Shown here piece after piece: positions 1,938 to 60,200 of a stretch of DNA of 64,000 nt (its first letter is position 1; every line of letters starts with the position of its first letter). The stretch comes from Salminus brasiliensis (lineage: Eukaryota > Chordata > Actinopteri > Characiformes > Bryconidae), in assembly GCF_030463535.1 (NCBI RefSeq), contig NC_132879.1, positions 36,380,425 to 36,444,424 on the forward strand, written 5' to 3'. A program made the translations under genes and the position numbers. The notes beneath the pieces were generated by a model. The model made no database searches and was not told where the DNA came from. It saw nothing but the letters and a program-made list of their open reading frames with translations.

Positions 1938-1949
1938 CAGTTAGTGAAG

Positions 1950-2003
1950 ACGTTTAGTTCATAAACTGATCAGATGAGCTGAGAGTGGAATCAGCGGGAT
2001 TAG
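1950..2003 (+). other. probable non-coding first exon of the CatSper gene
   Basis: The bases before 2004 end in GGGATTAG and are followed by the strong donor GTAAGTG. The matching acceptor (T-rich tract then AACAG) ends at 2832, three bases before the ATG at 2835. The 5' end is not visible and the start is approximate. Confidence 0.5.
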
Positions 2004-2834: not shown

Positions 2835-4125
2835 ATGATGGTCAAAATACTGGCTGTGTTGTTTGCTGTGGCCCTGGTGGTCTCCTGTGGCCTTGAAGCT
2901 CCACAGAGGTCAGCGTGCAGCGGAGTGGATAGGCGTGGCGTGGCGGACATCACTGAGGAGCAGCGTGTTAACAGTAACACTGTGTGTATCTCCTTCTACT
3001 GAAACCATGATTTTACACCCATATGTTTACAATCCAGAACCCAGAACACACACTAGTGCAGGGGAGCCCGAGCCTAGTGCTGGAAGGTTGGAGTCCAGCA
3101 CAGTTTAATGGGTTCTTCACTTCAACACACCCGATTCTTGTAGGTGCAGAGTTGGATAGAGAAGCTAAAACTATCCTCAAGTTAAAATGTTGTTGGTTTG
3201 ACTGGAATAAAATAAGTATCAGGTCCAAACACTCCTCAAGTTCTCTGTTGAACCACAGTGGAGCTTCTCAGTAGATCCTGCATCCATCAACACAGGAACT
3301 GCAGTTTGTTAGGCTTGTCTTATGTTTTTGCTAAACCAACCAATCAGACTGAAATGAAATACAATGAAATGTAAAGAAATGAAATGGAGCTCAGTAGATT
3401 TCCTACAAACGTACGACACACATTCTACACATGTAACTGCACTGGTTACTGCTAGGTGTGTTACAGCAAGTAGCTCTTCAAACTGTGTTTGACTGGGAGA
3501 TTAGAGTTGTAGTGTTTGTGTGTGTGTGTGTCTATCAGTCTTCATAATCATGTTCTTAATGTTAATGGATGCAGAACCATAAAATAAGCATCATGAGAAC
3601 ATCCATCAATAATACCAGCGTTGATCATGAACTGCTTCTGTCTTTCAGAGCGTTTCTCAGTGTATGCTGGGCAGCCAGCTGGTGTTCGACCTCAACGCCA
3701 CACTTCAGGAGAGCAAACTCCTGAACCGCCGCTACTTCGACTGCCCGAAACCAGAGCCAGGCGTGCCCTGCTTCTTCTACAAAGACCGTAAGACCCCACT
3801 CGTACTGCAGACTTCCCTCACCTCCTCTACAAAGTGTGCTAGTTATCTAAGTTTACCTAACTCTCTCTCTCTCACTCTCTCTCTCTCCATCTCTAGTCTT
3901 CTATCCAGTCTTTGGTGTGAAGGAGAATGTCTCTGGAGAACTGGTCAGGTTCCTGGGCAGGTAAGAATTCTAATCATTATTCCATAGATTTCTCATATTA
4001 CTGCTCTTACGCATCATCTGGGTGTAAAAGTCTCAAAACTTTTAACCATTAAAATAAGTAAATCTCCTTCCTTTTTATCCTTTTATCAAACAAACCACAC
4101 TTTAACCTCTATCCCAAACTGTATT

Positions 4126-4168
<43 letters not shown>

Positions 4169-4378
4169 CCTCACAGCTACACCTTTAAGGTAGTAGGTGG
4201 GGGTCCGTATTCCAGAGACAACATCCGTGAATACAGTGAGGAGGAGATCCAGCACTACAACAGCTTCAATGACAGGTTTCTACATCAGATAGACTGAATG
4301 TGACAGTTCAGATTCCACACCACTGACTTACCAACTACAACAGTCTGTCTAACTGCTATGATCAATATTAACTACTGC

Positions 4379-4434
<56 letters not shown>

Positions 4435-4608
4435 TGTGTGTGTGTGGGTGTGTCAGTGCAAGCCTCGAGGAGACTCTTATTTGGACGTTACAGAACATTC
4501 CAGACTCTGTTAACATGACCAAAGAGGGCTTCATTGTGATGCGTGACTCCTTCAGCTGGGTCAGGTGAGAGCTCCCACTGCTAATTTTGTTAAAAAAATA
4601 ATTGTCAG

Positions 4609-4653
<45 letters not shown>

Positions 4654-7600
4654 GAAAAGGAGAAAACTTTTGACTGTTTGACTTTGAGTGGAGTTACATC
4701 AACAGCTCCCTCGTCTGTTATTCCACAATAATGAAATATGTGTGTGTGTGTGTGTACAGATGGGTGTGTCAGAGAAACTCTCCATGTGGGGATCTAACTC
4801 CTCAGGGTCTGCTGGATCCAGACTACTTCTTCCTCATTGAGGTCTCCAACAAGTACGTCCTCTTGATTTTGATTGTAGTTAGGTTTGATTTCTCTTTCAA
4901 TGTAGAAGAAGCCCGACACCTTTAAATCCAGAAACAGCTCAGAGTCATGTCCTTCTCCCTGTGGAGCTTTTATAGCACCTAGAGAGACTCATTCCAATTA
5001 GCACGTCTTCATCTCAGTGAGCTTTACTCAGTGGAGGAGATTCTCCTGAAGTACATGTCTCCTGAAGTCCATAGAGAAATCTGAGGTGTGAATCTGGCTC
5101 AGTTATGGTGGCCTCTCCTCACTACACGTGCTGAACTCAGCTCTGCATCTCACTGAGAACTGACTGTGTTAAGAGGGCTGATTGCCTGATGGCTCGGTGA
5201 TCTTGAAGCATGTGCAGGAGAACCATGCTCTGCACTTGTACTTGAACAGTGATGAAGCAAGAGTGAAGGAGAACTCAACTGCTTTTAGATGCTTAAAGTG
5301 CAGCAAAAACAAACAAGCTCTGTAAAAAGATGGAATCCAGTAAAACAGAGAGACTAGAACTAAAACGTCACCTAGGAGAAGAAAATGACGTTGTAGAAAA
5401 CGAAGCTGCCTTTTAATCGAAGTCTGAAGAGAAACAGGAGTTATGCAGTTTGGTCACTAGAGCTATCTGAGTTAACTTTACCTACCAAGCTCCGCCCCCT
5501 CGCCCCACTGTGTACTTTATTTGAACATCACAGGTATAAGATTGGACTGGAGTGTGCCCCCAAGTGGTGAGAAAGAGCTATGCACGATTTTCAATATCTG
5601 TGTACTTCTGATTTGTGTGTGTGTGTGTGTGTTTGCAGGGGAGTTGACAGGAGCACATCCTGTGAACATACTGCCCTGTTTGAGCTGCATGTTCATGGAC
5701 TTCCTATGATGCCACTGAGAGCCCTGTTCTACGTGGGGGTGAGGGACTTCTTCAGACATTTTACACAATATAATTGATTAGAATAACATGTTTTAGTAGA
5801 AGATCTGAACATTCAGAAGAACAGTCAACACACTCATTACAGACCACACCCTTAAAGACACTCTCTGTGTTTGTAGATGACCATGATCATCATTCTGAGC
5901 ATCCTGATCTTCTACATCCTTCACAAGTGCTGTGGGTCGAGACAACAGAACCACTGCACTGTAGAACATGAGAGCCCTGTAGAAGAAGGTAACTCTGCTA
6001 GAGCTTTTACATCCACTCAGATATTCACTACACACACATACACACCTATACTCTCCGTCTAACACACACACATGCTGAACACTACTGAACACACTCGTTC
6101 TCTGTCTGTTTCTTTTTCTTTCTCTTTGTAGAGGATCAGTGCAGTGTGTTTGAGGACTCTGAGGTTGATGGTCATGCAGTAAAGGATTGGTGGACGAAGA
6201 TCGAGGAGATCTACAGCCTCATCGTGGCCTTCACCCAGAATCCTTTTTTCAGTGGCTTCATCCTGTTGGTGGTTCTGCTGGATACCGTGATGCTGATCAT
6301 CCAGGCCTTCCCCACTGTCAGTGTGAGAGCAGGTGCGGTCAAACACATGTTCACTCTGTCACTTTTTTTTGTGCAAAATCTTAATCCCAGCACTGGTAAC
6401 CTTATAATTATGAGCGCACACCAGTAGTGGATATGAACACACACACACACACACACATACACACACTTATGGATGTGTGTAATATGGAAGCTCTCTAGAC
6501 ATATGCTGGTATTCAGTAGTTCAGTATAGTGTAAAAAAATAAACACACCCACAGCAATGTTATCATACACACTGTACATCTAGATTGTTAAAGGGCTTAT
6601 TTCTACATATTGTTTTGTACGGATGTAATAGGTTGGGTGTTCTCAGCTGTGGATGCCTGTTTCCTGGGCATCTACCTCATGGAGTTCTTGCTGAAGCTGG
6701 TGGTTTTGGGGCACAAGTACTTCCTGAACCCCTGGAATGACATGGGTGAGCTGATCTGTTTCTTATGAGAATAGTCAACATGGTTCTAAAATGGCAGCCA
6801 GGTTCTGCATCCTGAAATTCATGTACAGATGATTTTCAAATCTCAGGAGCGAGTTTTTATATGATAGCATGTTAGAACTTCTTCAGAGTCTTGATTTGTT
6901 CTCTGTTCCAATTTTCCTTTTAGACTTCATCATTGTTGTGATGAGCGTGGTGGACTTTACACTGCCACTGCTACAGTCCTCAGGACTCTTTGGCAGCAAG
7001 CAGACTTCCAGCGTCTTCCGCATGCTGAAGGTCATGAAAGGAGCGCGTGCAATCAGGGCTTTCCGTTTGCTGAAAGCCATCGAGTAAGAAAAATGACAGC
7101 TTTGTTAATGTGGTCAATCAGGCAGTTACGGGTGTCCATATCTGTGGCTTTTACTTTGAATCACTAACTGGTAAAGCTTTGGTAAATGTACCAAAAGGGG
7201 TGTTCAGCTCCTCCCATATATTAACTCGAGGACTCTCTCTCTTCTTCTAGCTCCTTCCATACGCTGCATGTGATCCTGACAACTGCTGTGAAGTCTCTCC
7301 GGTCCATCGGCTCCACAGCATTCATCATGCTCATGATTATATCCATGTTTGCCATTTTTCTCCGGGTGCTGTACAGTGAGTCTGACCCGGAGAGGTTTGG
7401 AAGCATGATGAGCACCATCACCACCTTGTTCCAGGTGCTGACACTAGATGACTGGTCCCTGGTCTTCAGCACCAGCAATTCCAAGGGTAAGGGCTCATGT
7501 CTTACTAGTAGTCAACAAGTCACATGAGAAGATAACTGCTGTCAATTTTCTGTCCAGCTGGAATTTTAAACAAATATTTCTTTGTCCTCTGTTTTCTACA

Positions 7601-9342
7601 TGCAACAGGAGCTTCTCACATCATGGTCTTCCTCGTGCTGTACATCTTAGTGGAGAATCTAATTCTCCTCAAGTAAGTTACCTGGAATAACCTCCCAGTG
7701 TTCCCAGTTCCCTATTCTGTGACCATTACAGTACATAATGATGTCTATGAAGGCATTTTGTCATCTGGCTCTTATTTATAATAGTTAAAAGTCAAGGCAG
7801 TGGGATTTGTGGTGTTATCTTCAAAGCATTTAGCCGGTCATCCCACCATACTGTTGGACTTTAGACCCTCAATGAGCAGCAAAACCTCTTACATCACCAG
7901 TCAGATGGTGTTGATTATCTCTACTCAGTCCATGTTAATGTTTCTTTATTCACTTCTTTTTTCCTGTTCTTCAAGCATCATCCTTGCAGTATTAGTGGAC
8001 AACTTAGGACTCACAATCAACACCACGAATCGGCAGGTACACAGAATTCAGACTCCTGCAATGTAGAAAAAGTCCTAGATGTGTAAAGGTTCAGTATTCT
8101 AACTGTTCTCTGATTTCAGGTCCAGCATACTCAAGTAGATGAAGATGAGTACATCAAGAAGATCGGTAAGTATGTGTAAGACAGCATTCGTTTACCTGAC
8201 AGAAGGGCTGGCTGGTAAAACAATGACTACCACTTTTTGATTGATTTTTCACCTTGTTATTCATGTTTTCTCCTGAAATGGCACAAGAGAGTGGATTAAA
8301 CACCCTCTGTTCAATAGAAGGAGTAATCAGAACATCTTGTTATCAAGTAAATTCAACAAGTTAAATCCATGGATGATCCGCCCTGGAGGTTTCTGTTAAA
8401 AATACAGAATATCTAGACATTAACTTACACTATACATACATTACACATACTAAGCCTAGAGGGAGCTCACAACACAGCAATCATGCTTGTCTCCGTCTTG
8501 GTCTCAAGTTCTTAAATTAAAAAAGGTTTAAATTAGCTTGTTCCTTAATGTTCTGTATTAGTTCTGTGATTTATGGATCTCTGTCACTTCAACAGAACTG
8601 GAGCTGAGTGAGCCTCAGTCAGAAGAGGAGTCGTACCAGGAGGCTCTCAGACAATCTTTTATTGATAAGAAATACAGCAAGAGGTGAGAGACACTGTTTC
8701 AGAAATACTCATATGTTGTTGCCTCAAGCGTAGTAATAGGATCAGGATATGACATCATATTCTTCTAAGAAGTAAAAGACCCAACTATAGTGGATGATCA
8801 TTAACTTACACTGCCTCAAGCTCACACTGCTTTTCTCTGAAGGACTGCTGTTTGTTGTGTTTATAGGAAGACGGAGCTCATGATGAACTACCTGAGCGTA
8901 TTGACCAACATGGAGCAGACCCAGTTCTCAATCGGGTCAGAAGCTTTTTTAATGGAGAAACTGGTGGAATGCAGCTTTAAGGTAATGGGCTTTTCATATT
9001 CATGCCATTGCAATTACAATATGACAAAAATGGATCTTCAATCACGGTTCAATCATAAACCAATGAAATGAGCAGAAAATAAGAGAGTAAAGTTCCTTTT
9101 GATTGTGAATATTGTGCGAACAACATTAACATTTAGAATAGAAATATGTTTCAACCTTATAATAGTAAAAAACACTGTAAACAAATAGAATTCAACACAG
9201 TAATATTCCTGTTAAAATATTGAGATGTGTAAATATACGTAAGGCAGTCCATTAAAAACTGTATTTATCCTTATAAAGGAGTTACTGAGGTTTTTCTTTT
9301 TTTTTCTTTAAGGGAGAGGAAGTAGAGACTGACAGCAGTTGA
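2835..9342 (+). CDS. catsper1: CatSper1-type sperm cation channel subunit with an N-terminal auxiliary-subunit-like ectodomain
   Basis: Pore subunit of the flagellar CatSper calcium channel. Eighteen exons: 2835-2981, 3649-3787, 3897-3960, 4177-4275, 4457-4564, 4760-4852, 5639-5738, 5877-5988, 6132-6332, 6632-6745, 6924-7083, 7251-7486, 7609-7672, 7976-8036, 8120-8165, 8596-8683, 8867-8981, 9313-9342. The sum is 1977 bases and 658 residues with no stop. Only the first donor (2982) is uncertain. Order: signal peptide (1-18), ectodomain to about 244, helix about 246-267, basic cytoplasmic linker, S1 about 326-347, S4 with R425, K428, K431, R434, R437, R440, pore TLDDW at 510-514, and a C-terminal helix region ending GEEVETDSS. 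The residues FGSM...TLDDWS and the tail match CatSper1 better than CatSper2-4. The ectodomain (WVCQRNSPCG, VHGLP) resembles the membrane-proximal end of CatSper gamma/beta/delta/epsilon; gamma is my best guess from memory. There is no His-rich N-terminus as in mammals. Confidence 0.82.
3035..3295. repeat. MITE-like dispersed repeat in CatSper intron
   Basis: The stretch GGAGTCCAGCACAG followed by CAACACACC resembles 45793-45950, where a similar GGAGTCCAGCACAG...CCAGCACACC unit occurs. Two copies of the same words in unrelated places indicate a mobile short element. It lies between the first and second coding exons. Confidence 0.45.
4129..4168. repeat. (TG)n tract against a 3' splice site
   Basis: Uninterrupted TG repeats end about eight bases before the acceptor of the exon at 4177-4275. 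Confidence 0.9.
4380..4450. repeat. (TG)n tract against a 3' splice site
   Basis: About 70 bases of near-pure TG run up to the acceptor of the exon at 4457-4564. Open frames of CV or TH residues here are artefacts of the repeat. Confidence 0.9.
4607..4650. repeat. (TG)n/(GA)n microsatellite
   Basis: Short TG run followed by about sixteen GA units in the intron after the exon ending at 4564. Confidence 0.85.
6427..6470. repeat. (CA)n microsatellite
   Basis: CA repeats in the intron between the S1 exon and the S2 exon of the CatSper gene. Confidence 0.8.
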
Positions 9343-24200: not shown

Positions 24201-27200
24201 AAAGCATTTTTATGTTACATTACCTTCAAGTCAGTTCAAAACAGTCTACTAGACTACTGTGAGCAGGGGAATTATATAGGATAATTTGCTGCAGAATTGG
24301 TATTTAGCCAACCTGTGAAAATTTCTGATTCATACCGAATTAAAATGACACAGATAACTCTCACAGGCAGTTACTTAAATTACACCCCCCCCCAAGTAAA
24401 ACTGATCGAACTTCAATAAGACTTTAGATGTAATAAATATTAACCCCTAAGATTTGAAATACAGGCTTGTTAAATGTTCGGCTCATTTTCAATGACATGA
24501 AAAACAGCTAGGTGCAAATGCAACAGCTAGGTATTCTTAAGTTAAAGGAGTAGAAAATGACACCTTATGCTCCTGGTTATTCAAGGGATTTAACCATTGA
24601 GTGTTGTTGCACACATAGTAATAGTGCTGATGTTATAAAAGTTTCAATTTCACACAACAGTTCAGTACAGTGTTGCTGAGTTCTTGCTTGACAGGTTCTA
24701 CATAATGCTGACACCTCAGACTGCTTCTGCAAATAGCATAAGAGGGCTGACAACTGTCTCTATTGAGTCTGAGCGTATATTATTCATATTTCTGTGAGCC
24801 TTGAGGCTTTTTATGCCGTGGTGGTTAGTTTGAAGATAAGGCGAGGATGGTGTTCTCTTTCGCCTAAAGTGCAGTAGAGGTGGTGTTATGGTCCTGCCAG
24901 AATAGTTGACGCATCAGTATGTGTATCAGGGTTCACCCACATGCCCATGTGAAGAGAAGCGTAACATACATGTCAGACAAAGGAGTGTTTAATAGACCCA
25001 GTAGTATAGAGAGAATGTGGCACTGCATTTGTAATCCCTAACTCTTTATGTTGAGTGATCCTTTGTGGATGGTTAATAATAATATATTCAGTGTCAGTGA
25101 CATATCAACCCCATATCAGTGCAGTAGCAGCAGTGAAACAGCTGAATACACTGAGGTAAATATCTTGAATATGTTCTGTTGATATTACTGACATTAGGAT
25201 TCACTGTTGATATTTTACATCAAGTAGACTTCATATGTTACTTCCATTAAGCAGATTTACCTTATTTCACTGTAGCTTGAACTCTAACCCTAATCCTAAC
25301 CTTAACTTTAAACCTAAACCTTAGTGTAACCCTGGTCCTTACGGTAATCCTTACTCTAATCTTAATCCTAACCTTACATCTCAAACCCTGGTCATAATCT
25401 TAATCTTGACCATAATCCTAACCCTGGCCCTAATGCTAAACCTTGATCTGGATCCTAATTCTAACACCTAACCTTAAACTCAAACCAAAACCTTACTGTA
25501 ACCTGGCTAGTAACCTGGCTAGTAACCTGGCTAGTAACCTGGACAACCTGGACAGTAACCCTGTAGTAACCTAGACAGTAACTTGGACAGTAATCCTGAC
25601 TTTAATCTTTATTCAAACCTTAATCTCAATCCAAAACTAAATTCTAACACTGGCCATAATCCTAATCCTAAATTTAACTTCAACCCAAAACCTAATCCTA
25701 ACCTTAACTTTAATCTCAACCTAATCCATGACCCTAAAGCTGTCCCTGGCCCTAATCCTAAGACTAATGCAGCATGTCTGTAACAGCTTGTTGAGGAAAA
25801 TAAGATGGTGTATATTTTTATTTTTGTGTTTATTTTATCTATTAAGAACCTCTCAAGATAAAGAATCACCCTTTTCGTTGTAATTCTCTCTCCAAGCCTC
25901 TTCTAAAACAGTAAAATAAGTAAAATACTGACCAAATGTGTGTGTGTAGGATTTGACTGTGAATGGTGATGGTACCTTATCTCTAATCTGAAAACAGCTG
26001 TGTCAGCAGTGTGAATGTGTGTGATCTCTCGTGCTCGTAGACAACTCGTATTTCGGGACGATCTATACCTCAGATGACCGTGGCATTCTGTACTCCAAGT
26101 CACTGGAGCGGCACCTGTTTGGCATGGAGAGGAAGAGTGACTTTACCAATGTGACATCACTGAGAGGAGTCTATCTTACCAATGTCCTGGAGGAGGGTAT
26201 GGGCATCTACCAGGCACTACACCCCGAACACAAAAAGGATTCTACGGTTTTACAGGTCTATAGACAGTGTCGTAGACCAAAGCAGTCAAGATGCTTGAAA
26301 TGTAGACCTTCTGCGTTCATTCAGGGGGTTGATTTAGAGTGTTAGTTTGTGCAATTACTTTTGAGCCTGTAAAAGTGGAGGGACTATGTAAACAGTCGGT
26401 CATGAGCAGACATGCATCTTTTATCACTATAACTGTGACTTATAAGGGCGAACTGCTCTCCGACCTTATGCGTAGATTTTAACACCCAGCTAGCCCACTT
26501 TATTTGCTACAGATGGACGAATTACCACGGTCATCACATTTAATAAAGGTGGAGAGTGGAGACCACTAAGGAAGCCAGAGAATGTTGAATGTGGAAAAGA
26601 TGTTAAAAGGGTATGTTCACAGTGTGTGATGGTACCAGACATAGCAAGAGATACTATGGCTCCTGAAGTGGCAATAACAATTGTTGTGTGTGTGTTTCAG
26701 TGTAACTTGCACATCCATGGAGAGCACAGCCACTACATTGGTATTTCCCCCATGGTGCCACTCACCGATTCTGCTGCTGTTGGCCTGATCATCGCCCATG
26801 GTAGTAGTCACACAGTCACACTCTAACCTCAACTCACACTCTAATTAAGGACTTGTATGGGGCGCATAATTCTGTTATCCCACAAACCTGCAGTTTATGG
26901 GACATCTGTCCAGCACTGGTCAGATATGATAGTAACATGCGCTCTCTGTTCTTTGCAGGTAATGTTGGGGACTCTATTTCAGCATCTAAGCCAGATGTGT
27001 ATGTGTCCTCGGATGGAGGTTACAACTGGATATGCACGCTTAGAGGGCCCCACTACTACAGCATACTGGATTCGGGGGGCCTGTTAGTGGCTGTGGAGAC
27101 TCACAAAGACCGGCCAGTTAACGTTATAAAGTAATGCTTGCTTGATGGGATAGTTGTAACACAGTGCCTTTGTCTTTTCTGTATGTCATTATGTTATAGT

Positions 27201-30200
27201 TCTGAGATATCTCCGGTATTTAAAAGCAATAGATTGCTTTCCTGACATTATACATTAATAACAATGATTTTTTTATTGTATTATTTTATTATGTAGTCAT
27301 GTATAGCCTATGTGAGAAACTTTATCTGAATAGGACCAGATTTGAGAACGATACAGTACTACAACTTGTATTAACATCATCAGAGACTAGTATGTGTATG
27401 TATTTGTATAAATAACCAGCAGTTGTGTTAGGAAAGTTAGTAAATCCTCATAGCCTTTATAGACTGCTCTTTTTTTTTCAGGTTCTCCACAGATGAGGGT
27501 CAGTGTTGGAAGACTTATAATTTTACCACGCAGCCTTTCTTTATTGCCGGCCTAGCGTCTGAGCCTGGAAGTAAGACCATGAACATTAGCGTGTTTGGAT
27601 ACCGACCTGATGACGACGATCAACCCATGTGGGTTGCAGTTACCATAGACTTTGAGCAGCTGCTAACCAGAGAGTGTAAGCAAAAATTATGTACAAATAT
27701 TTGTACATCCCTGGTCAAAATATATGTTACTGTGAATAGCTAAGTGAGTGATAGATGACCTGACTTCCAAAAGGCATAAAGTGACAGATGGCACATTTCT
27801 TTAATATTTTAAGCCAAATGTCCTTCTTTTGCAGTTTCAAAATAACAAAAATGAAAACTCTGGGCACCATGTGTGGTCAGTACTAGTAACATCTCCTTTG
27901 GCAAGTATCAAAGCTTATGAACACTTTTTGGAGTCTTTCGCTGCTTGTTTGAGGGATTTTCACCAATTCGTCCCTGTTTTGTGAGATTCTTGGGCTGTCT
28001 TGGGTGCACTTTTGAGATAAATCCACAGGGAAATACCAGGATGACAGAGGAGAGGATTTAGTTTTTTTGTACATGCTCTTTAATATATGTGACCTTATAG
28101 TCTATAGTCTGCTAAATCGTCCTGAAGGTCTTTTCCAGTCAAATGGGAGGTTCCGATCTGCCCCTTCTCTCAGAAAGCTCTCGACTTGATCTCCACTTTT
28201 CCTGTTAGCTAACTGCACTACGAATTGAGGAAACAGCTCACTGTTTTCATACAGCCTTCTCCTGCTTTGTGAGCATTAAGTGTTTTAATCTGCAGATTGT
28301 TATACAGCTGCTTAAAGAAGCCTATGGCTGACGTTTGAGAAGTCAAAGTATTTTTTAAGCTTTAAAACCTTGCCTTTCCTAACAATCATTGTGAACAAGC
28401 CACAGCCCTTACAAGCTAATTAAAGTCTGCAAGTTCAAATCTCTTAGGGTGCTCAAGCATTTGCATGGTGTTCTCTTACCTTTTTCACTCTAAAGTTGTA
28501 CAAAACAAAAATAATACACTAATCTTGCAAAATAATGTTGTCCTAAAAAGTTTTGGAGATCAGTTTAACTTTTTCTTTGTCATTTAACTCAATTCACAGT
28601 AACAGAACTTTTGACTTGGGTGCCCAAACATTTGCATGTGGCTAAGAAGTACTACTTCTCATTGTACTTGCCAAGTAGTTGCACTGCTAGATAACACTGC
28701 TATCTAGTGGTCGGGGTTTAAACACTACACACAATGAACCACTGTCTGCCATCAATCTTTACGTGTACACTTACACAATACTGTGTTGTTGAGAGTCAGT
28801 ACAGTATTACAAAACTACGAGAACCGCCTTTTCAGTTAACATCTAACATATATCCCAGACTTAAATGCAGTTGAACACTATGCAATAAGTTTAGTGTGAT
28901 TCAATGGTAACGTTGTAGTCAACATCATTTACCTCACCTATGAAGTTTTGCCTCATCAGTGTGTGATGCTGTGGCGGGAACACAAACACTGAGAATGCTG
29001 TGAATTGCTAAAGAGCATAAGAGCAAATGTAATGTTTCAGTGCATTTGGATGATTGTGATGTGTCTGTTCATGTCACGTTCAGGTGGAGACGAGGACTAT
29101 GTGGAGTGGCTGGCCCATTCGGACAATGGAGAGACCTCAGAGACTGTTGGGTGTGTCCTAGGCTACAAGGAAACGTTTAGGAAATTGAAAATGATGTCGG
29201 TCTGCAGAAATGGTCGGGGATATGTGGTCAGCAGACAACACACGCCGTGTCCCTGTACCAGGGAAGATTACATGTGGTAGGAAGTCAGGATATCGAGTTG
29301 AGATATCCTGTTTCTCTTTTCCTCTGGTAGTGATGGAAAAATGAAAGTTAGAAATGAGAGCACCATCACACTGAACACCATCACATCTCTTTCTGACAGT
29401 GATTATGGATACTATCGCCATGAAAACAGCTCTGAATGTGTGGCACAGGAGGACTTGATAGACAAGACACTGGAAAACTGCTTAAAGTTAGGAGAGCTTC
29501 ATACAACAGGGTATTGGCCAGTCATCCTACTTTTTATTCCACACATACACACTTGAAGATGCAGCTCCCCATTATGCTTTGATGTGCATTGTGAACAGGT
29601 ATCGTAAGATCCCCAGTGATAAGTGTGAGGGAGGTTTCAGCCCGCCACGCCGAATGGACGAGTCTGAGAAGCATTGTGGGAACTCAAGTAAAGATTCTCC
29701 TTCCAGCCATCACCATCAAAGAACAGTGCGTAATATTACATTACATACATTGATTTCTAAGTGTGTTATGCAAGAGAATGGACTTGGTAGTTTACTAACT
29801 GTGTACCAGCAGGTAGGGAAATCAATAGCAATATAATAAAACTCCCCTCTTACAATGCCCACCTACAATCTCGTGATCCCAGAGACCTTCACAGATACAG
29901 TGTCTCACGCAGAAAACATCACAACATGGAAAGTGGAATGCTTTATGACTTCTGATTCATGTGGATCTCAGATAGGCATGCTAATGAGATTTCCGTCCCT
30001 GTATTTCATACCTATTATCTATTATTATTATTAACATGCATGACTGACAGCGCTCTATCAGTGGAAAACAAAATGTATTTATGTTACCATGGCAACCATA
30101 GATTTCTTTAGCATCTTGAGGTTTTACTAAGGTTCTGGTACCTGTAACCAGGTTAAATATAGATACGAGTCCCATCTGCCGGAGGGGCAGGGTACAAGTG

Positions 30201-31589
30201 GGTGGTGAGCAGCGGACCACCCTGCTACGGCCACTAAATTCTGCGGTGAAGCACAGAGGCGAGGGCCGCTAAACGTGAGGGACAACGGGCTTTCATTAGA
30301 CTTAGGGAACATATTCATAAGACATACTTTGTACATTTCCACTGGGGGCCATGAGGAGCCAGATTGCCTTAATTAGAAAGAAAACTCAGGTTTAGGTTCC
30401 ATGAGTCAAGTTTCCATTAATCAGACTGTGGCAGGTGTGGTGTGGCCGTGAGCTGTGAATATACTGGGGATGTAACTCAATGGTAGTGTGCATGCTTTGC
30501 ATGTATGAGGTCCTGGGTTCAATCCCCAACATCTCCATTTCGGTGGGGCAGTGGTGGCTCAGCGGTTAGAGCTTCGGTTAGAGCTACCCTGATAACAGGG
30601 TTGTGGGTTTGATACCTGGGCTCGGCAAGCTGCCACTCTTGGGCCCTTGAGCAAGGGCCCTTCACCCTCTCTGCTCCCCGGGCACTGGAGTTAACTGCCC
30701 ACCACTCTGGGTGTGTGTGTGCTCACTGCCCCTAGTTCACTAGTGTGTGTGTGTTCACTACCACAGATGGGTGAAATGCAGAGGACACATTTTACTGTAC
30801 ATAGTATGACAGATGACAGATACGTGCACCATTACTAATTCATGGATTATGATCCAGATTAAGAGCCACTCTGTTTTTCTGTTATTTTCTGTTTTCTGTT
30901 ATTGTTAATGACTTTAATGGTATAAAGGGACTAGTGAATAATTAGGGATCAGTAAATAATTTACAATTCGGAGGTTTACAGTGTCTAGAGGTTCACACAG
31001 GGAAAACAGTTTATAAACCATTTATAAATAAGTGATTGATTTACAGGATGAGGTGTGGTTGCAGATTGTGATTAGCGTTTGCGTGGGCATCGTAGTGCTG
31101 GCCGTCATTGTTGCAGTTGCTGTTACAGCCCGGAGAGAGAACTACAGTCAAAGGTAAGGTACAAGTCAAAGTCAGTTGGTGATTTTGTACACTATTGTAG
31201 ACTTGTTTATTTCACTGGCCCTACTCTGCCCCCTACAGGTCAACAGCATACCACTTCTCTGCTCTCCAGCTGCACGAGGACGAGCCCTGCATCGCCCCTG
31301 AAAGTGGACCAAGCAGCAACAGAGTCAGCTACCAAGAAGATTCAGATGACGTGAGTGTCATATTCCAGCATCTTCTCGCTAGCATGCAGTTCAACTAAAT
31401 AAACAAAAACAATTTAAATGTTAAAACAGTGCCCCTTATACGGATGACAAGAACTTCATCAGTCTAGTTTTCCAGACATATCTTACACTGAGGATACATT
31501 GACAAACCATATAAGAAAAAAACACTATTTTCATGTTTTACACTGATATTAATCATGCTTTTTGATCTCTTTAGGAACTCATTGAATGA
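16902..31589 (+). CDS. sort1: sortilin (VPS10-domain sorting receptor)
   Basis: Type I receptor that carries ligands such as lysosomal proteins and pro-neurotrophins between Golgi, surface and endosomes. Twenty-one exons: 16902-17105, 17316-17378, 18547-18623, 18756-18858, 19301-19468, 20945-21018, 21521-21567, 21800-21936, 22950-23033, 23393-23453, 26041-26196, 26513-26610, 26701-26800, 26959-27130, 27482-27675, 29084-29276, 29400-29510, 29599-29725, 31047-31153, 31239-31350, 31575-31589; total 800 residues (human 831). Signal peptide 1-20; furin site TRRRR about residue 39; a ten-bladed VPS10 propeller with Asp-box motifs ([40 protein letters not shown]); a 10CC module; one membrane helix in the exon at 31047; a short tail ending [19 protein letters not shown] and FSTDEGQCW match sortilin rather than SorCS or SORLA. 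Which teleost duplicate (a or b) is undecided. Confidence 0.95.
17379..18546 (+). other. sortilin intron 2 with A-tracts and (AT)n
   Basis: Contains poly(A)-like runs near 18060 and 18110, and an (AT)n microsatellite at 18168-18203. No exon is seen. Confidence 0.7.
20010..20720 (+). mobile_element. decayed Tc1-like transposon in a sortilin intron
   Basis: A transposase-like start ([22 protein letters not shown]) lies at 20022-20213. After frame breaks come [20 protein letters not shown]-like residues near 20265-20330 and FQHKNLI...HGGGSNMVF near 20430-20490. These are the DNA-binding and first catalytic regions of a Tc1-family transposase. Several stops show it is dead. It lies wholly between sortilin exons. 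Confidence 0.75.
21937..22949 (+). other. sortilin intron 8, nothing recognised
   Basis: AT-rich; overlapping short reverse frames at 21873-22156 are chance. No conserved exon seen. Confidence 0.5.
23155..23325. repeat. two (CA)n microsatellites
   Basis: CA tracts at about 23159-23180 and 23293-23314 flank unique sequence in one sortilin intron. Confidence 0.85.
25268..25785. repeat. degenerate telomere-like CCTAA array with a 12-base sub-array
   Basis: About 500 bases of CCTAAYCY-like words (CCTAATCCTAACCTTAAC and variants), close to but not exactly the vertebrate telomere hexamer. Embedded at about 25499-25580 is a tandem array of TAACCTGGCTAG and TAACCTGGACAG, a 12-base unit. The asparagine- and proline-rich frame at 25583-25783 is an artefact of the repeat. 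It lies in sortilin intron 10. Confidence 0.85.
27710..28650 (-). mobile_element. decayed DNA transposon in a sortilin intron, probably Tc1/mariner-like
   Basis: GCTTGTTTGAGGGATTTTCAC followed by TGTGAGATTCTTGGGCTGTC and ATAAATCCACAGG is the order I know from a common fish Tc1-type element read in reverse. The ends carry GGTCAAAATATATGTTAC and GGGTGCCCAAACATTTGCATG words. Family assignment is from memory; the copy has no intact frame. Confidence 0.5.
30035..30295. repeat. dispersed repeat, related to 32425-32765
   Basis: The words TGTAACCAGGTTA, CCATCTGCC, CAAGTGGGTGGTGAGCAG, CCACTAAATTCTG and GCACAGAGGC occur in the same order in both places. Confidence 0.6.
30466..30537 (+). tRNA. tRNA-Ala(TGC)-like sequence, probably decayed
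   Basis: Seventy-two bases, the usual length for tRNA-Ala. The acceptor arms GGGGATG and CATCTCC pair throughout (one G-T), the anticodon stem CATGC/GTATG pairs, and the loop TTTGCAT gives anticodon TGC. The D stem ACTC/GTGT has a T-T clash and the T stem has a C-A clash; box B reads GGTTCAATC, as if a CpG had decayed. No T4 terminator follows closely. It is probably a pseudogene or a SINE-mobilised copy, though it may still transcribe. Confidence 0.6.
30541..30830 (+). mobile_element. tRNA-derived SINE
   Basis: The head GTGGCTCAGCGGTTAGAGC (box A-like) and GGTTGTGGGTTTGATACC (box B-like) is followed by a body with CTCGGCAAGCTGCCACT, GGGCCCTTGAGCAAGG, CTCTGCTCCCCGGGC and GTTCACTACCA. I recognise this as a SINE family common in otophysan fishes. 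A GGTTAGAGCT word is duplicated in the head. It sits three bases after the tRNA-Ala-like sequence. Confidence 0.85.
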
Positions 31590-57201: not shown

Positions 57202-60200
57202 CAGTTACTTACATTTACCACCAAGGCATCTTGGATGGGTGAATGTGCTGGGTCTGTGCTGCTATTCTGACCTGAAGTCCCCTCCTCTTTTTGGCTGTCT
57301 GAGCCTGGATCAGGCTTCTCATCATGATTCTGAAGAGTTGGGGTCTGGAGACCAGTGTGAGCAGAGTGGTTTAGAATTGATGCCACACAAAGCTCCACTT
57401 GGAAGTGCAAGAAGTTATTCCAGGTGTATTTAAAGAATAAATCCTGTAAGCAGAAAGGGAAAAATGCAAGTAAGTACTTTTTTAAAATAGCATTACATTT
57501 TCCTCAAAAGAAAGTCTCACAAACACCACAGCCTCTTTTCAAAAGGAGTCACATGTCACTAACTGAATTTTGCATGAAAGATCACTGTATACCAAGTTAG
57601 GAAGGAGTAGCGTGGGATAAATACAAAATGAGACTACAGCAGACTTCATTATATAACAAACAGAAACAAGGTCTTGTGTTGTGAAGTGGCTACAAAGGAA
57701 ATGCTTAACCCTCACCAGCAGCAGGTCCATGATGTTGAGCCTGCAGAGCTCCTGGCAGATGCTGTGGTCGCTGGTCTGCAGCAGGGAGGCCACCAGTCTG
57801 GCCACATGAAGGCGGGCGTTCCCCAGCGGTTGCTCCAGAACGCCAACGGTTGTGAGTATTGCACTTTTCTGCTCAATACCATATGGGAAATACACAGGAA
57901 TAAAGTGGATGTTCTTTTAAGAGATTTAAAAACAGTGGACAGTCCAGAAAGAACCACAATTTCATAATGCAAAATCCAAATGCACAATGGAAACATTACT
58001 TAGCGCCTTAGTTCTGAACATTAAAACCCAACTTGCTTTGAAATACATACACTTTATGAAGATAATGCACAATACCCCAAGTACCTTAGGAGGGTCCAGT
58101 AGGAGTTGCTGGAAGTCTTTCAGATGAGGCTCAATAGCACGTAAAATACTGCCACTGACAGTGTAAGACCTTTCACATCCCTGAGAATACAATTCCATTA
58201 GACCCTCCAGCCTGAAACAGAACAACAAAGTCCCCATTTTTTCCACCTGGTAGTATGAGGGAGCGAACTAATGTAAATAAAGAGAAGACATGTAGAAAGG
58301 TGCTGTCAGTGTTTAATGTGGACTAATGCTGGTTGTATCACTTACCCTGACCTCCTTGACTCCAGTAATGTAAGAAGCACTTGAGTTCCATTGACAACAG
58401 AAGCTTCACTCTTCTCCCCCTCAAACATGCTTTTCAAAAGCTGCGCCACATTCTCTTCTCTAAATATAAATAAAGAAATAAACCTGTAATGCTATACTTG
58501 CTTTATAACACAGTGCCTGGGATTTCATTATTACTTTTCAATGAATCAACATTCTGCCTGATCGATATTATCAATAACAATCTGCATTGGCTGAAATAGT
58601 AGATGTACAATTAAAACAATTAAACATTTTGTGTACATATATTCAGTACTCTGAAATAGTTTTAAGGTCCTGGGATTAAAATAAAAAACCTCCTTATTTG
58701 TGAAGTGCTTCTTCATTTAATTAGCAAATACTGTATGTGTGTAAATACAATACATAAATAAAAGTGTTTTACGTGCGTTGCTGTGGTCAATAAAACACTT
58801 TCAAAGCTCTACTGGGGAAGCCCAATATTATTTATAGTACAATATTATTACAATATTACAGTATTTATAGTATTATTTATAAATTCAACATCTGTTTTGG
58901 TCAATCAATGCTAAATCAATCAAAGTTGCTGGAAGTCAATGTTAAATCAGGTGAGCTGGTGATGGAATTGGTGATAGAAGAAAAAAAAACAAAACAAATG
59001 CTGTTAAATAGGTAACATTCTTTTTAAACATTAGGGAGCTCCATAAATACCATGTGTTCAAATATAACAATAGTTCACTTCTGCACAGTGATTTTACAGC
59101 TTAATTTTTTTGTCGGTTTCCATTATTCTTGGAAACCGACAAACAAACTTACGACTCTAGGACTGCCAGTAAAGGGTCCGGCTCCATAGTCTCTGGCATC
59201 TGATTGGCCTGGTCTCTACTGAGACGAATGATGTCGCAAAGAGTCTGGGACGCATTCGATTGTCTCTGCAGCAAACAAGACACATTTAAAATATTTAGTG
59301 ATGAAACATAATGACTATAACAGAATGCATTTACTGGGTTTCAGTTTAAAATGCAATACTACAGAAAGTATTCCTTATGTAATATCTGAAGATCCCCAAA
59401 AAAAAACCCACACACAGAAAAAAAACCCACAAAACAAAACTTATATCAATCCAGATAAGAAGTAAACCAGTAATCGTCTCACCTCTTCATCTCTCCCTGT
59501 GTGCATGAGCTCAGTCAGCCTCTGGATCAGCCGCTCCTCATTCAGCCACTGTAGACAGAACATCCTTCTTTAAGCTCTGGGCCCATGCCACATTAAGCTT
59601 TTCTTCAAAAGGCAAAACACTGGAACCAGATGCTTAAGAGGTCACTTTAAGTTCACCAAGTTTAATTTTGGCATCACCAAGTGCATTCAGCAGCCCCCCG
59701 CCCCCCATTAAAAAACAAAACAAAACAAAAACCAAACAAACAATAAAAGCAGTAGGTGATCCAGAAAAGAGGGAGAGGAGAAGTGTGATTTAGTGAGACT
59801 GTGCTCCAATCACCTCCGCCAAAAACTTATGTAATATGTAATTGCCTAACAACAGGTCAGAAGGAAACTGGACAGGAGAAACTGTTGTAAACAGTTAAAA
59901 TAAGGTTGAATCTAAACATCCTTGCCACAGCAACAACTACAAAACCACAATATAGAAGATGTGCAATTCAAGCAGACAACCTTTTATAAATTAATTACCA
60001 AAGTGACTAGGTTTCTATATATGTAGTGCTATAAACGTTATTTGCTTCGACATGTCAATGTTTTTACTCACCAAAGCACCTGACACCATTTGTATTTGAT
60101 TTAAAGCATTACATGGTTTAAAATCTCAGCAGATAATATGGGTAACTTTAATCTTCTGTGCACATTTCACACCACACATTGCCACAAGTAATACGCTTCT

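Follow-up and report, generated by a model that had tools for sequence, protein, structure and literature searches.

CatSper, which carries four large extracellular subunits, is a calcium channel required for hyperactivation and male fertility in mouse and human sperm. We analyzed 64,000 nucleotides of contig NC_132879.1 of the fish Salminus brasiliensis (positions 36,380,425 to 36,444,424; this whole stretch is called the window) and found, at 2835-9342 on the plus strand, a gene in which the pore subunit CatSper1 appears to be joined in frame to part of the auxiliary subunit CATSPERG (gamma). It is very probably a real, selected fusion gene that would encode a signal peptide, the CATSPERG stem and membrane helix, an acidic, fast-evolving cytoplasmic linker of about 58 residues, and a complete CatSper1. 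An earlier note on this DNA had proposed a pore subunit carrying the stalk of an auxiliary subunit without its propeller head. Both Pfam and the PDB agreed with this and identified the stalk specifically as CATSPERG. As counted by genome searches, the fused gene has been amplified into several arrays, with about 79 copies that have both stem and pore, and the CatSper2, 3, and 4 exons have been multiplied too.

Gene model and identity of the two halves

The gene was rebuilt from raw sequence and has 18 exons and 17 introns, all GT-AG, with matching phases. Its coding sequence is 1977 bp including the stop codon and gives a protein of 658 amino acids. The rebuilt model agreed with the earlier note on a continuous frame that encodes a signal peptide, then about 225 residues of ectodomain, an extra membrane helix, and a six-helix channel. 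The coordinates given there for the joining intron and the total length were also right. The features are listed below; exons 2-7 and 9-17 are each supported by the gene model and a PDB match, together with any further evidence given on the line.

1948..2003, +, probable non-coding first exon; 5' end uncertain; donor TAG/GTAAGT at 2004, score 7.0
2835..2981 (alternative end 2908), +, exon 1, signal peptide MMVKILAVLFAVALVVSC; gene model, kept in copies
3649..3787, +, exon 2, CATSPERG stem begins; 81 genome matches
3897..3960, +, exon 3, stem
4177..4275, +, exon 4, stem
4457..4564, +, exon 5, stem
4760..4852, +, exon 6, stem
5639..5738, +, exon 7, stem
5877..5988, +, exon 8, membrane helix of CATSPERG, then the first part of the cytoplasmic linker; mouse CATSPERG alignment to residue 266
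5989..6131, +, phase 1 intron at the join (143 bp); read-through from exon 8 reaches an in-frame TAA at 6060
6132..6332, +, exon 9, remainder of the linker and S1 of the CatSper1 channel
6632..6745, +, exon 10, S2
6924..7083, +, exon 11, S3-S4, with S4 = SSVFRMLKVMKGARAIRAFRLLKAI; subfamily comparison
7251..7486, +, exon 12, S5 and pore, motif TLDDW; 82 genome matches
7609..7672, +, exon 13, first part of S6
7976..8036, +, exon 14, second part of S6
8120..8165, +, exon 15, C-terminal tail
8596..8683, +, exon 16, C-terminal tail
8867..8981, +, exon 17, C-terminal tail
9313..9342, +, exon 18, final residues and stop TGA; gene model

Pfam matched CATSPERG_C (PF22846) over residues 78-265 of the window protein (E=1.3e-51) and Ion_trans over residues 325-557 of the same protein (E=1.2e-33). 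When residues 1-287 were searched against the PDB (at a limit of 10), CATSPERG was the sole match, with two distinct sequences at an E of about 4e-48. Residues 54-266 align with residues 878-1083 of mouse CATSPERG (7eeb chain F, 9ubw chain F), which are its stem and membrane helix, and here 86 of 206 residues are identical (41.7%) and all six aligned ectodomain cysteines are kept. The PF22846 and PDB matches exclude a lack of similarity to CatSper auxiliary subunits, an outcome the earlier note had allowed for. In contrast to mouse CATSPERG, the fusion has nothing that matches before the stem and runs into a channel instead of a short tail. The stem domain and one membrane helix are present, but the propeller head (PF15064) had no Pfam match in the 658-residue protein. 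Judged by these domains, the protein carries part of a CATSPERG but is not a CATSPERG. A search for relatives of the stem in viral contigs gave four pattern matches, none of which was confirmed.

The channel part best matched mouse CATSPER1 in the PDB (7eeb_A, 1.5e-62), with CaV3.2 as the next family (1.1e-38). It resembles mouse CATSPER1 (7eeb chain A, 9ubw chain A) in its six helices, charged S4, and TLDDW pore, and the TLDDW pore and basic S4 are present in five subfamily representatives. We take a pore Asp in T-x-D-x-W together with a basic S4 to be a CatSper1 pore feature, and it is visible in the mouse alignment. By homology, the C-terminal part is a CatSper1 pore subunit, as had been proposed. 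The long His-rich N-terminus described for mammalian CatSper1 (PMC11289002; papers given by PMC number are cited from excerpts of their text) was not found, and a signal peptide, an extracellular gamma stem, and a membrane helix stand in its place.

Splice donors were scored with an approximate matrix. The donor of exon 1 at 2982 is weak (0.2), and a donor at 2909 (2.1) with an acceptor at 3651 is likewise in frame, so the end of exon 1 is uncertain. Low donor scores were also seen at introns 2, 4, and 14 (-0.11, -2.29, and -0.1, respectively). Upstream of exon 1, 1948-2009 is 80.6% identical to a copy on the plus strand of contig C3, and 1783-1893, farther upstream, is likewise conserved (70.2%). 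Exon 18 was also modeled in six copies on contig C2, and loci L018 and L011 have similar last exons by eye.

Copies of the fused gene and constraint on its frame

The genome searched comprised 1,066,335,885 bases in 103 contigs (C1, C2, and so on), including the window. Pore exon 12 as the query gave 82 CatSper1-type matches (all 84 candidates scored), and 81 of them are free of stops. On C3 there are 53 at 29.41-30.65 Mb, 14 at 28.08-28.29 Mb, 1 at 25.72 Mb, and 4 on the reverse strand inside the large array; the others are at C2:37.57-37.66 Mb (6), C1:28.95-28.96 Mb (2), C7:14.78 Mb (1), and in the window. Stem exon 2 as the query gave 81 matches (all 81 candidates scored), 80 of which are full-length (at least 45 residues) and stop-free. 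A stem exon 2 lies upstream of 79 of the 82 pore exons, on the same strand and 3502-4374 bp away. When a stem-family search (150 of 242 candidates scored) was paired with the pore exons, the result was again 79 of 82.

The three pore exons without an exon 2 were considered as candidates for an intact unfused CatSper1 and rejected: L021 is missing exons 1-4, L013 is decayed, and C7:14779148 has two stops. A separate CATSPERG gene was also sought among the exon 2 matches, but 79 of the 81 are at fusion loci and the others are a partial duplicate at C3:29674761 and a 23-residue match at C3:29509420. At the search sensitivity used, neither a separate CATSPERG gene nor an intact unfused CatSper1 was found.

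Some of these loci have further features. The 23-residue match resembling stem exon 2 (C3:29509420-29509488) sits in a 1701-residue open frame within the large array. At L015 (C3:29.673-29.683 Mb), a partial duplicate of the stem alone, with exons 2-8 seen in the stretch read, comes directly before a copy that starts at exon 1. L001-L009, L013, and L015, all on the C3 plus strand, have an additional exon 5-like stretch between exons 6 and 7.

The copies fall into subfamilies. Across 17 coding sequences including that of the window, identity to the window copy was 96.8-97.1% for six C2 copies, 82.9% for two C1 copies, 79.7-79.9% for seven C3 minus-strand copies, and 77.7% for one C3 plus-strand copy. 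Two further subfamilies also matched CATSPERG_C (4.1e-48 and 9.3e-51) plus Ion_trans in one protein.

Exons 1-17 were modeled in 25 loci, the window and 24 others; the remaining 17 of the 41 loci retrieved consisted of short, partial, or flanking stretches or of other genes. All 17 exons are open in 22 of the 25, with a picker that favored open exons. This first exon picker required lengths to be equal modulo three and penalized stops, and for L011 and L012 exon 8 was placed separately. Since frame agreement and a stop penalty were built into the picker, placement was repeated for the 24 loci by plain pairwise alignment to the window with no frame rule. This placed 400 of 408 possible exons; in 391 of these the length difference from the window is divisible by three, and 397 keep the GT. 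The nine non-multiples are four exons in L013, exon 17 of L032, and exon 7 of L014, L017, L018, and L019, where the projected start is not on an AG. At the join, the exon 8 GT, the exon 9 AG, and both lengths modulo three were kept in all 24 loci, which come from subfamilies whose coding sequences diverge by up to about 22%. Exon 8 is 103, 112, or 139 bp long among the loci.

Ratios of nonsynonymous to synonymous substitution (dN/dS) were calculated for 12 pairs, six of them between subfamilies, with residues 50-246 taken as the stem. The between-subfamily values were 0.24-0.43 for the stem, 0.16-0.22 for the channel, 0.21-0.54 for the C-terminal tail, and 0.30-0.37 overall. For the window copy and L025 of the C2 array, they were 0.34 for the stem, 0.11 for the channel, and 0.95 for the linker, and the stem also gave 0.34 within the C3 plus-strand array (six copies). 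As measured by dN/dS, both halves are under constraint between subfamilies.

Several results weigh against the interpretation as a selected fusion gene. Three modeled copies are broken: L032 loses the frame in exon 17, exons 1-4 are missing from L021, and L013 has decayed. In the six between-subfamily pairs, constraint was weak in the linker (0.41-1.38), the gamma helix (0.45-1.31), and exon 1 (0.35-0.73). Within the recent C3 plus-strand array, the channel and tail were near neutral (0.88) and the helix and linker gave 1.47, each from few changes. Many recent copies may therefore be surplus or partly redundant. In addition, the absence of the other auxiliary subunits, described below, rests on exon-by-exon searches of limited sensitivity.

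One possible explanation is that most of the amplified copies are passengers of unequal crossing-over, either decaying or neutral, and that only one or a few of them, such as the window copy, work. The near-neutral channel half within the C3 plus-strand array would fit this, as would the broken copies L013, L021, L032, and C7:14779148. However, nearly all pore exons (81 of 82) and stem exon 2 matches (80 of 81) are full-length (at least 45 residues) and stop-free, and dN/dS between subfamilies is well below 1 in both halves. We consider this explanation possible but unlikely.

Another explanation is that the fused protein is made and then cut in the linker, so that the gamma stem and CatSper1 reassemble as in mouse. 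A fast-evolving, acidic linker is what a cut-tolerant loop could look like, and gamma and CATSPER1 are partners anyway, but nothing in the data requires a cut and we regard one as improbable.

The arrays could also be an assembly artifact, either unmerged haplotypes or a misassembly. Near-identical tandem repeats are hard to assemble, and the six copies of the C3 plus-strand array are 98.5-99.7% identical to one another. On the other hand, the copies stand at distinct, fairly regular spacings (medians of 21.5 kb, 15.0 kb, and about 17.9 kb) and differ among themselves, and subfamilies 3-22% from the window copy are found on C1, C2, and C3. The fusion itself is independent of the arrays. An artifact of this kind is quite improbable.

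Lastly, a truncated CATSPERG and a CatSper1 could be two adjoining, separately transcribed genes, with the fusion an artifact of the gene model. Read-through of exon 8 stops at the TAA at 6060, and here the earlier note, which had described the joining intron as free of stops, was wrong. Exon 8 starts with an ATG (Met251) from which a shorter product could begin, and there is an AATAAA at 6538 in the intron after the joining intron. Within the joining intron (5989-6131), both AATAAA and ATTAAA are absent, which bears out the earlier claim that it holds no poly(A) signal. Its donor, AAG/GTAACT, scored 4.44, which is above the 99th percentile (4.04) of the 3905 GT dinucleotides in the window, and only pyrimidines make up its acceptor tract. 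Upstream of exon 9, the frame runs into a stop at 6086 without passing an ATG. A channel with its own first exon was not supported by a scan of 4853-6130, since the donors scoring at least 3 bits offered just one other coding first exon, exon 8 itself, read from Met251 and carrying the gamma helix. The splice sites and phase of the join are also kept at all 24 loci despite an intron 8 that varies from 69 to 863 bp, and two separate genes are very unlikely. A chance in-frame alignment was dropped given the Pfam E values for both halves and the same fused structure at dozens of loci.

Other CatSper genes in the genome

The CatSper2-4 pores were searched for with mouse letters taken from PDB alignments. 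The CatSper2 query gave 12 matches, 11 of them at an E of 1e-6 or better. A CatSper2-like exon of the genome's own also gave 12 (11 of 58-59 residues and one of 36), with ten at C1:67.77-68.85 Mb and the others at C1:10.86 Mb and C13:20.25 Mb. The CatSper3 query gave 75 matches, of which 74 are alike and each weak (E 0.0027-0.0089). These 74 lie at C20:28.59-28.88 Mb (28), C20:22.27-22.45 Mb (17), and C3:24.87-25.17 Mb (29), in tandem arrays with a median spacing of about 10.5 kb. The matches read through one TAG, which in L040 sits ahead of the exon. The CatSper4 query gave 63 matches, and 59 of them are alike over the same 26 residues (E 0.0024-0.0051, one 0.029): 47 at C8:28.74-29.42 Mb, 3 at C8:33.96-34.19 Mb, and 9 on C18. 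The other four are elsewhere, on another part of the query.

One locus of each type was then compared with the PDB. The CatSper2-like locus matched its family at 4e-23 against 3.1e-13 for the next family, and the CatSper4-like locus (L041) at 3.2e-20 against 2.4e-10. The CatSper3-like locus (L040) gave a weak match (0.0013 over 41 residues), with no other family at an E of 0.1 or below. Going by one representative of each, CatSper2, 3, and 4 pore exons are present in the same genome. The pore of L041 reads TQNGW where mouse has TQDGW, so that Asn replaces the selectivity Asp, and two CatSper2-like loci (L038 and L039) have TGDNW where mouse has TLDHW.

Other parts of the auxiliary subunits were not detected. 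The genome search for the CATSPERG propeller found nothing at an E of 0.001 or below and, up to an E of 10, only two unconnected matches with stops. For CATSPERB_C and the CATSPERD propeller there was nothing at an E of 1 or below, and CATSPERD-E_C gave a single chance-like match with stops (E=0.88). These searches work one exon at a time, and all 14 control genomes stayed without a match, as they did for the stem family; therefore, the auxiliary subunits are described as not detected rather than absent. Such a search did pick up the gamma stem of the fusion loci, so a family about 42% identical to mouse was visible to it, but no more than that.

Proposed architecture and comparison with known CatSper complexes

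We propose that the stem would lie outside the cell, that the gamma helix would cross the membrane inward, and that the cytoplasmic linker would lead into S1. Hydropathy and homology predict seven membrane helices with the N-terminus outside. BK (Slo) channels with S0 likewise have seven helices, an outside N-terminus, and an extra helix before S1. Unlike the extra helix of the fusion, the Slo S0 is short and has no origin in a separate auxiliary subunit bearing a stem of 200 residues. The fused subunit would take the place of CATSPER1 in the CatSper tetramer, with the gamma stem fixed beside it.

The mouse structure shows CATSPER1 paired with gamma, CATSPER2 with epsilon, CATSPER3 with delta, and CATSPER4 with beta (PMC10055175, PMC11514763). 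Since gamma is the partner of CATSPER1 in mouse, the fusion would join natural neighbors and make their pairing permanent and fixed at one to one. In a review, the contacts are placed at S0 and S2, and the domains follow the order N-terminal domain (missing in delta), propeller, immunoglobulin-like domain, stem, and helix (PMC11514763). In mouse sperm, the roof of the canopy is mainly made of propellers, and gamma-gamma contacts join neighboring dimers (PMC9205950). Because the propeller is absent from the fused protein, this bridge between neighboring complexes presumably cannot form through the fused subunit. The system is like the mammalian complex in having the same gamma-CATSPER1 pair and CatSper2, 3, and 4-like pore exons in the genome. 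It differs in that the gamma stem is covalent, the propeller subunits are undetected, and all four pore genes are multiplied.

The excerpt of a 2008 survey states that CatSper was kept without further duplication and appears to be lacking in teleosts, and it suggests that extra CatSper duplicates would be excessive and degenerate (PMC2572835). The amplification described here runs counter to that suggestion as it is worded in the excerpt. In a 2019 study, sNHE and sAC were found in three ray-finned fishes that retain CatSper (PMC6660944), and a 2024 survey of more than 500 vertebrates found the length of CatSper1 to be highly variable (PMC11289002). We found no description of a fusion of a CatSper pore and an auxiliary subunit, or of CatSper arrays, in the titles and abstract starts of the open-access literature among the matches listed.

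The likeliest use of the fused gene would be in a sperm flagellar calcium channel, made in a large dosage or in several variants. The large copy number suggests a demand for dosage, variation, or selfish spread. Tentatively, and with some doubt, this lineage may have rebuilt the channel: the four-propeller canopy would be gone, with only the gamma stem left welded to CatSper1, and all four pore genes would stand in arrays (82, 12, 74, and 59 alike pore-exon matches) that provide a very high dosage or many variant combinations, perhaps under sperm competition or through selfish amplification. A pore joined to the stem of its partner and present in dozens of tandem copies would alter how the channel is built. 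A natural fusion between a single pore subunit and the stem of its neighbor would be independent evolutionary support for the pairing seen by cryo-electron microscopy. It also suggests that the part of gamma worth keeping is the stem and helix, not the propeller. If the propellers are truly missing, this species would be a natural test of the role of the canopy.

The window also contains other features. Exons of a sortilin/VPS10 gene (PF15902, PF15901) lie at 26025-27740 on the plus strand, and an exon of a SAPS-domain (PPP6R-type) gene (PF04499) lies at 57542-57916 on the minus strand. By eye, 1-419 on the plus strand appears to hold the last exons of a gene for a coiled-coil protein, in two open frames without a Pfam match. 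A tRNA gene at 30466-30537 on the plus strand was the sole Rfam match in the window at gathering thresholds.

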